Positions 30,247 to 58,180 of a DNA stretch of 59,395 bases are shown one piece after another. Origin of the DNA: Deltaproteobacteria bacterium (lineage in GTDB: Bacteria; Desulfobacterota; DSM-4660; Desulfatiglandales; HGW-15); assembly GCA_019310525.1 (NCBI GenBank), contig JAFDEE010000003.1, positions 1 to 59,395 of the forward strand, written 5' to 3'. The position numbers were made by a program, and so were the translations under genes. How positions within the stretch are numbered: the first letter of the stretch is position 1; each line of letters begins with the position of its first letter. Under the pieces are notes generated by a model. It did not search any database. It had not been told where the DNA came from and saw only the letters and a list, made by a program, of their open reading frames with translations.

Positions 30247-30435
30247 TCAAGAGAATTTCCTCATACGTTTCCGCCTTCTTTTCGCTGCCTTGGCCTGCTT
30301 CTTCTTCCTCTGGACACTTGGCTTGTCGTAGAAGCGTCGTTCCTTTATCTCGGAGAAAAACCCCTCCTTTGTCAATTTTTTCTTAAGATCTCTGATAGCC
30401 TTTTCTATCTGATTATCCTGTACGATTACTTTCAT
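30247..30435 (-). CDS. rpsU: 30S ribosomal protein bS21
   Basis: 62-aa basic protein of the small ribosomal subunit needed for initiation. The full S21 pattern is present: MKVIVQDNQ, then IEKAIRDLKKKLTKEG, the KERRFYDKPSVQRKKK core and an Arg/Lys-rich tail. It lacks the usual neighbours dnaG and rpoD. The start has only a weak ribosome site (GAAAGAGATTG). A small gene with its own promoter and terminator lies about 250 nt upstream on the same strand; read-through past that terminator could feed rpsU. Confidence 0.95.
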   Translation of the reverse strand: MKVIVQDNQIEKAIRDLKKKLTKEGFFSEIKERRFYDKPSVQRKKKQAKAAKRRRKRMRKFS

Positions 30436-30605: not shown

Positions 30606-30632
30606 AAAGCATCTCTATCCCAGAGATGCTTT
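30606..30632 (-). terminator. Intrinsic terminator of the 46-residue gene
   Basis: On the minus strand AAAGCATCTCT, a five-base loop GGGAT, and AGAGATGCTTT form a perfect 11-bp stem; it is followed by TTCTGTTTG. This is the clearest rho-independent terminator in the window. It ends a transcript of about 310 nt starting near 30917. Confidence 0.75.
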
Positions 30633-30682
30633 CCCGGACCTTGCCTCAACGATTGTAACGGTGTCTTCCTAGACCATACCGA

Positions 30683-30823
30683 TTACACTCTCCTTGGGAT
30701 CGAAAGGGGCGGTTCCGCTTTCGCCCTCTTAAGGGCCGAGAAGCATTTCTCCCGTGTGGTGGACGGCTTGATAAAACCGCAGGGTCTTTTCCACCGGTCA
30801 AGTCGGTCGTTCCCTTTGGTCAC
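30683..30823 (-). CDS. Candidate small basic protein, 46 aa, own transcription unit
   Basis: Not recognised. GTG at 30823 is preceded by AAAAGGGGGTGATC, which differs at one central base from the full complement of the 16S rRNA end, 3 nt before the start codon. The product begins MTKGNDRLDRWKRPCGF and is strongly basic, with two Cys (15 and 27) and a Pro/Arg-rich end; there is no membrane segment. A TTGACA/TATATA promoter lies about 100 nt upstream and a perfect terminator 50 nt downstream. It lies between rlmD and rpsU on the same strand. It could be a ribosome-related small protein, a leader peptide acting on rpsU, or a chance frame in a regulatory RNA. The same extended ribosome site precedes rpsP, which supports real translation. 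Confidence 0.55.
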   Translation of the reverse strand: MTKGNDRLDRWKRPCGFIKPSTTREKCFSALKRAKAEPPLSIPRRV

Positions 30824-30923
30824 AGCGATCACCCCCTTTTCATACCCTGTTCCTTATTTCGCAACCAGCCTTCAGTATCTCAAACCCGCAATAACATGGG
30901 CCGGTAAAATCACAGGATTCACC

Positions 30924-30951
30924 TATATATAAAGCTCCCCCGGATTGTCAA
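30924..30951 (-). promoter_or_regulatory. Strong sigma-70-type promoter of the small gene
   Basis: On the minus strand TTGACA (30946-30951), 16 nt, TATATA (30924-30929). Predicted start near 30917, giving a 5' leader of about 95 nt before the GTG at 30823. It lies 62 nt after the end of the rlmD-type gene, so it is not that gene's promoter. Confidence 0.6.
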
Positions 30952-49830: not shown

Positions 49831-49867
49831 CACTGAACAACCGAAATAGAAGGGGGTGATAGAGTTC

Positions 49868-50110
49868 ATGGCGGTTAGAATCAGACTGGCAAGAATGGGA
49901 GCCAAAAAGAGGCCGTTTTATCGCCTGGTTGCTGCCGATTCGGAAGCGCCTCGTGATGGCAAGTTCCTGGAAATACTGGGAACCTATGATCCGACCAAAG
50001 ACCCGGCCCAAGTATCGATCCATAAGGAGAAAGTGAAGGATTGGCTTGAAAAGGGGGCCGTCGTTTCCGGATCGGCCAAGGCCATCCTGAAAGCACAGGG
50101 GGTGGTTTAG
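49868..50110 (+). CDS. rpsP: 30S ribosomal protein bS16
   Basis: 80-aa ribosomal protein: MAVRIRLARMGAKKRPFYRLVAADS is diagnostic, followed by LEILGTYDP and KVKDWLEKGA. ATG at 49868 is used; the upstream AAGGGGGTGATAG is an extended ribosome site, and an upstream GTG within it would add only four residues. It lies between ffh and khpA in the conserved order. Confidence 0.97.
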   Translation: MAVRIRLARMGAKKRPFYRLVAADSEAPRDGKFLEILGTYDPTKDPAQVSIHKEKVKDWLEKGAVVSGSAKAILKAQGVV

Positions 50111-57822: not shown

Positions 57823-58180
57823 GGGGGCGAAACGGGTTCGACGGGGATAGAGAAGCTTAGGTTGCATACCGAGGTTCCATCACCCTCGTAAATCAGGTGG
57901 GCAAAATATAGACGCAGACGATTATGCGTACGCTCTGGCCGCATAACGACGGCCAGCGTCCTCCCGGTCCTCTCCTGCGGGACCGGTAAGGGCGTCGACT
58001 CAGCGGGATAGCCGAACCGACCAACCTGTGGGTCGGGGACGCGAAACTATACACAGGTTAGTTTCCCGGAGACTTTGCCCGATAGGAACCCGGGAAGCGA
58101 AAACTTTATATCGGGCTAAGTATGTAGAGACCTAAGTGGAATATTTCCGGACGCGGGTTCGACTCCCGCCGCCTCCACCA
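57823..58180 (+). ncRNA. ssrA: Transfer-messenger RNA
   Basis: 358-nt tmRNA. The 5' end GGGGGCG (57823-57829) pairs with CGCCTCC (58170-58176), followed by A and encoded CCA. The tRNA-like part has GGTTCGACTC (T-arm) near the 3' end. The tag frame ends ATGCGTACGCTCTGGCCGCA-TAA, stop at 57944-57946; read from GGG at 57899 it encodes GQNIDADDYAYALAA, with the usual ALAA end for ClpXP. The resume codon is inferred by frame, not shown. Its 3' end is a common integration site for islands. Confidence 0.95.

Follow-up and report, generated by a model that had tools for sequence, protein, structure and literature searches.

A candidate ribosome-controlled transcription attenuator in the leader of rpsU in Desulfobacterota

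We conclude that the compact unit directly upstream of rpsU is most plausibly the 5' leader of that gene, which would act as a ribosome-controlled transcription attenuator; judging from comparison with related sequences, we put the probability of this reading at about 0.8. Its features place it very probably among the leader-frame attenuators, with rpsU as the controlled gene: a terminator stands before the gene, an antiterminator is mutually exclusive with it, and a short frame led by a Shine-Dalgarno (SD) sequence overlaps the antiterminator, with a few loci deviating. The cell probably uses translation of this short frame to set the amount of bS21.

Parts of the leader and strength of its Shine-Dalgarno sequence

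The window (the whole 59,395-nt stretch of DNA analyzed here) carries every part of the leader on its minus strand. A −35 box read in the sequence, TTGACA (30946-30951), is paired across a 16-nt spacer with a −10 box, TATATA (30924-30929), which a strict promoter scanner did not report because it is atypical. The extended SD AAAAGGGGGTGATC (30827-30840) leads a frame of 46 codons with a GTG start (30683-30823), two of which encode cysteine; the list of open reading frames gives 49 amino acids for the same frame because its start is a GTG inside the SD. The unit ends in a terminator hairpin (30606-30632) with a perfect 11-bp stem (AAAGCATCTCT/AGAGATGCTTT) and a 5-nt loop, GGGAT, followed by an interrupted U-tract (TTTTCTGTTT). 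The proposed controlled gene, rpsU, lies at 30247-30435 on the same strand and was identified as encoding bS21 by its match to Pfam PF01165 (E = 5.6e-16). The gene upstream of the leader we take to be rlmD, a name assigned from its protein sequence. The first-pass annotation had described a minus-strand promoter, ribosome site, GTG-initiated 46-codon frame with two cysteines and 11-bp terminator adjoining rpsU on its upstream side; all of these parts were present where it had placed them, and the Pfam match agrees with its naming of the downstream gene.

The SD of the leader frame is exceptionally strong. Its predicted pairing with the 16S tail GGATCACCTCCTTT, a sequence that was found in 14 of the 41 genomes searched and had no exact match in the window's own assembly, amounted to −21.7 kcal/mol in the window and to −19.1 kcal/mol on average in the family. 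The corresponding energies for 41 longer genes of the window had a mean of −8.1 kcal/mol and a best value of −12.9 kcal/mol, and the SD region of rpsU itself reached −2.9 kcal/mol. The extended SD is not unique to the rpsU leader. Within the window, AAGGGGGTGAT also occurs before a gene reading as rpsP (49850-49870, plus strand), which was too short to enter the 41-gene comparison, and a pattern search of the genome placed the same SD at one further site.

Conservation of the module upstream of rpsU

Regions upstream of rpsU were gathered from the window's order for comparison. About 50 relatives in two families of that order, f1 (the window's own) and f3, carry the same module ahead of rpsU, consisting of a TTGACA promoter, the extended SD AAGGGGGTGAT, a frame and a terminator of the form GCATCTC..GAGATGC-TTTT. 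Of 46 relatives, 43 have a TTGACA promoter scoring at least 10 of 12 ahead of the SD, compared to 6.5% of shuffles, and the extended SD was retained in nearly all of 52 elements, with five sequences deviating from the exact AAGGGGGTGA. The spacing within the module is steady, the terminator following the SD by about 200 nt at most loci, whereas the terminator can lie as little as about 20 nt or more than 350 nt before the rpsU start. Comparison thus shows promoter, SD, frame and terminator to be conserved. Six loci (L059, L062, L066, L078, L081, L108) depart from this pattern, either because the typical motif is missing or because the frame is shifted. Two further variants were seen upstream of rpsU. 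L069 and L071 have the SD and a frame starting at ATT, and no typical terminator was found at either; the L071 genome also has a partial second copy of rpsU, which carries a complete element (L202). The element at L145 is shortened; it contains an ATG-TAG pair and two SD sequences, and its near-perfect antiterminator duplex reaches −36 kcal/mol.

The element is also linked to rpsU. A pattern search of 85 genomes placed it beside rpsU in about thirty, with a few scattered matches elsewhere, and it is a single copy in the window's genome. Upstream, rlmD was not detected at 10 of 46 element loci, some of which may be truncated contigs, and in family f4 rlmD is present while the attenuator element is absent; we therefore conclude that the element follows rpsU and not rlmD. 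A DNA search of 17 family genomes returned short matching pieces only, the best of them from the terminator region. The possibility that the hairpin is simply the terminator of the upstream gene was rejected, as promoter, SD and frame accompany it and the linkage to rpsU is kept. We likewise rejected a phylum-wide element: an extended SD in leader position was found neither in 60 further rpsU upstream regions, nearly all of them from other Desulfobacterota families, nor in one f4 genome; two of these loci matched an SD-like pattern some 20 nt ahead of the aligned rpsU start.

Family f4 presents a different arrangement. At 13 of its loci (L092, L093, L096, L097, L099-L102, L104-L106, L110, L114) an extended SD of about −18 kcal/mol lies 67-82 nt before the rpsU start and is followed by a hairpin and then the start codon, the start-adjacent SD being weak; several of these loci have a TTG-stop pair directly after the extended SD. 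This sister family may have arrived at an equivalent outcome through a different arrangement. Two f4 loci also have cobalamin riboswitches (RF00174) downstream of rpsU (L101, 2305-2516; L096, 2385-2685).

The leader frame opens a few nucleotides after GGTG at nearly all of 52 loci and is typically 44-48 codons long. Among 50 frames the start codons were ATG (25), TTG (11), ATA (8), GTG (3) and ATT (3); the 11 frames needing an ATA or ATT start were assigned it from position only. Such frames include those of several f1 relatives (e.g. L053, L056, L060, L065, L074, L125), which have no ATG, GTG or TTG at the right spacing.

RNA pairing and competing explanations

In the window, an antiterminator 5' strand within the leader frame (30745-30731, minus strand) can pair with 30642-30627, the strand that carries the terminator 5' arm, and this pairing excludes the terminator. 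When the terminator 5' arm and the 20 nt preceding it were searched against the leaders, the strongest partner lay near SD+100, inside the frame, at most loci, with energies of −14 to −36 kcal/mol. Over all loci, duplexes formed with a locus's own partner averaged −24.0 as compared to −20.2 with foreign partners, and 0 of 20,000 permutations was as good. The own-partner advantage was also seen in 13 diverged loci (<68% identity; 4 of 20,000 permutations). On the alignment, the 19 antiterminator pairs gave a covariation score of 0.199 versus 0.154 ± 0.010 for shuffles, above 500 of 500 shuffles, a test that is inflated by the relatedness of the sequences. Sliding the alignment by one column lowered the paired cells from 74% to 49%, in pair counts that, like those for helix P1 below, were made on structures hand-drawn from the same sequences and so lean towards those structures. 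Because of this circularity and the effect of relatedness on shuffles, the permutation result for the 13 diverged loci weighs most.

Folding of the window's leader is consistent with a switch. A segment ending before the terminator 3' arm folded as the antiterminator (z = −2.18), and the full-length leader folded with the terminator. The window's own antiterminator duplex is moderate when compared to shuffles (z = −1.4), less striking than that of the family. RNAalifold, run on the full alignment, returned the terminator alone, as expected if antiterminator and terminator exclude each other. A further helix, P1, joins the start region (30813-30821) to a stretch about 40 nt downstream (30775-30783); it covaries in relatives (0 of 500 shuffles). 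Family f3 shows P1 clearly and much of f1 weakly, and the window has 7 of its 9 pairs. Near SD+85, 36 of 47 relatives, versus 10.6 expected, have a CCCC element by which the SD could be sequestered. The window has none at that position and instead carries GCCCCTTT at 30710-30703, which is paired close to the SD when the full-length leader is folded and is a weak candidate for the same role. Searches with Rfam covariance models gave no match at gathering score in the leader of the window or of 20 relatives, and matches at relaxed thresholds were at chance level. Elsewhere in the window we noted a tmRNA gene (57823-58180, plus strand; tag ADDYAYALAA).

These observations suggest the following mechanism. 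RNA polymerase would start at the promoter (30951-30924) and make a leader in which the 46-codon frame stands behind its exceptionally strong SD. When initiation is good, a ribosome would sit on 30745-30731 while the polymerase makes 30642-30606; with the antiterminator blocked, the terminator hairpin would form, transcription would end before rpsU, and rpsU expression would fall. If ribosomes initiate poorly on the leader, 30745-30731 would be free to pair with 30642-30627, no terminator would form, and rpsU would be transcribed. We infer both that translation throws the switch and the direction in which it does so: the antiterminator 5' strand is covered by the frame, so that by geometry termination should be favored when a ribosome trails the polymerase. 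At 30 of 50 loci no more than 60 nt separate the end of the terminator from the rpsU start; this leaves little room for another promoter, and read-through is therefore the likely route to rpsU. The first-pass annotation had offered an attenuator controlling bS21 as one of two readings, and this is the one favored by an antiterminator:terminator pair with compensatory changes placed so close before rpsU.

Its other reading, a ribosome-linked small protein, fared poorly. A stand-alone gene for a functional 46-residue protein would account for the complete expression signals and for the frame length held in relatives, and we nevertheless consider it most improbable. The pooled pN/pS of the peptide was about 0.74, with pair ratios of 0.2 to 2.8, a test blurred by RNA constraint on the same bases; the open frame thus seems to be kept while the peptide, only weakly constrained on sequence evidence, is nearly free to change. 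No Pfam match was obtained for it, and a protein search with the 49 residues against 60 relatives gave no convincing homologue beyond the module (best foreign E = 0.02), which we attribute to drift of the peptide. Moreover, at L081 and L059 the RNA motif persists although the frame has changed, and an antiterminator would be purposeless for such a gene. It would be left equally unexplained by a discrete, hairpin-terminated RNA of about 310 nt acting in trans, which we also regard as very improbable despite its own promoter and terminator and its single copy in the genome; linkage to rpsU holds even where rlmD was not detected upstream, and the terminator lies near the rpsU start at most loci. 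The first-pass annotation had further proposed that synonymous changes would argue for a protein and compensatory changes for an RNA; the stems fall on the RNA side, with the qualification that the translated frame is still part of the mechanism.

If the unit is a ribosome-controlled attenuator, what it senses is less certain. Attenuation specific to one amino acid was rejected, as the frame has no codon run for a single amino acid and its peptides have no dominant residue (Cys 3.9%; the largest, Ser, 8.7%). The contrast between the SD of the leader and that of rpsU (−21.7 vs −2.9 kcal/mol) makes SD-dependent initiation the likely signal. We tentatively propose, at somewhat short of even odds, that the signal is bS21 status: 30S subunits would report their own bS21 content, bS21-replete ribosomes initiating on the leader and causing termination before rpsU, in a negative feedback on bS21. 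This would fit with reports that bS21 provides SD pairing in E. coli (PMC10931766) and that rpsU of Flavobacterium johnsoniae is autoregulated through an extended SD of below −13 kcal/mol (PMC9976891). Other inputs that alter leader translation may act as well. In a broader form this idea becomes a rival that is possible, if rather doubtful: any slowing of translation on the frame, by antibiotic, cold or starvation, could shift the switch without bS21 being sensed, much as in antibiotic-resistance genes controlled by upstream frames. The anatomy would be the same (strong SD, short frame, alternative hairpins), and no specific stalling sequence is evident because the peptide is not conserved; yet what is controlled here is a ribosomal protein with a part in initiation and not a resistance gene, and both the extended SD and the weak start codons speak for initiation over elongation. 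Neither point is decisive. Less probable, and in our judgment unlikely, is a classical ribosomal-protein leader, in which free bS21 would bind the RNA, for example at P1, and stabilize the terminator, the frame being incidental. Many such leaders act so, as with L10(L12)4 (PMC4538822), and P1 does covary, but its uneven presence across f3 and f1 speaks against such a role, and the best conserved parts are the frame and the SD.

Relation to known systems

The proposed attenuator of rpsU shares with the trp/his leaders and the antibiotic-induced erm and vmlR leaders a translated short frame overlapping an antiterminator strand that competes with an intrinsic terminator. Unlike those leaders, it has no codon run for a single amino acid and no conserved stalling peptide; it has instead an extended SD, and its target is rpsU. 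The B. subtilis rplJL leader (PMC4538822) and the rpsL leaders of PMC2965389 are similar in that a ribosomal-protein gene is attenuated in its own leader, but these are thought to sense a free, RNA-bound ribosomal protein, whereas the switch proposed here includes a translated frame. Neither rpsU nor S21 is mentioned in the main text of PMC2965389.

Closest in subject is F. johnsoniae, where the bS21 gene is likewise tied to an exceptionally strong SD, whose pairing reads out the bS21 status of ribosomes; sensing of bS21 in the present case is our proposal. In that species the strong SD is that of rpsU, and the step controlled is translation, which ribosomes lacking bS21 favor (PMC9976891). 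In contrast, the SD described here leads a separate frame ahead of rpsU, within a proposed transcription attenuator; rpsU has a weak SD of its own, and we propose the opposite sign. Our literature search, whose coverage excluded many subscription journals, found no published description of an rpsU attenuator. Leaders of this kind are known; what appears to be new is that rpsU is the target, that the SD is so prominent and that the system occurs in this taxonomic group.

We found no description of how bS21 is balanced outside Bacteroidota, and the leader offers a defined RNA switch for this protein in Desulfobacterota, one that predicts that translation of the leader lowers rpsU. It also suggests that a tie between the bS21 gene and extended SDs has arisen more than once in distant bacteria. 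A small frame that could be annotated as a hypothetical protein can belong to an RNA switch, and, if feedback on bS21 content is true, the switch would be the opposite-sign counterpart of the Flavobacterium circuit.
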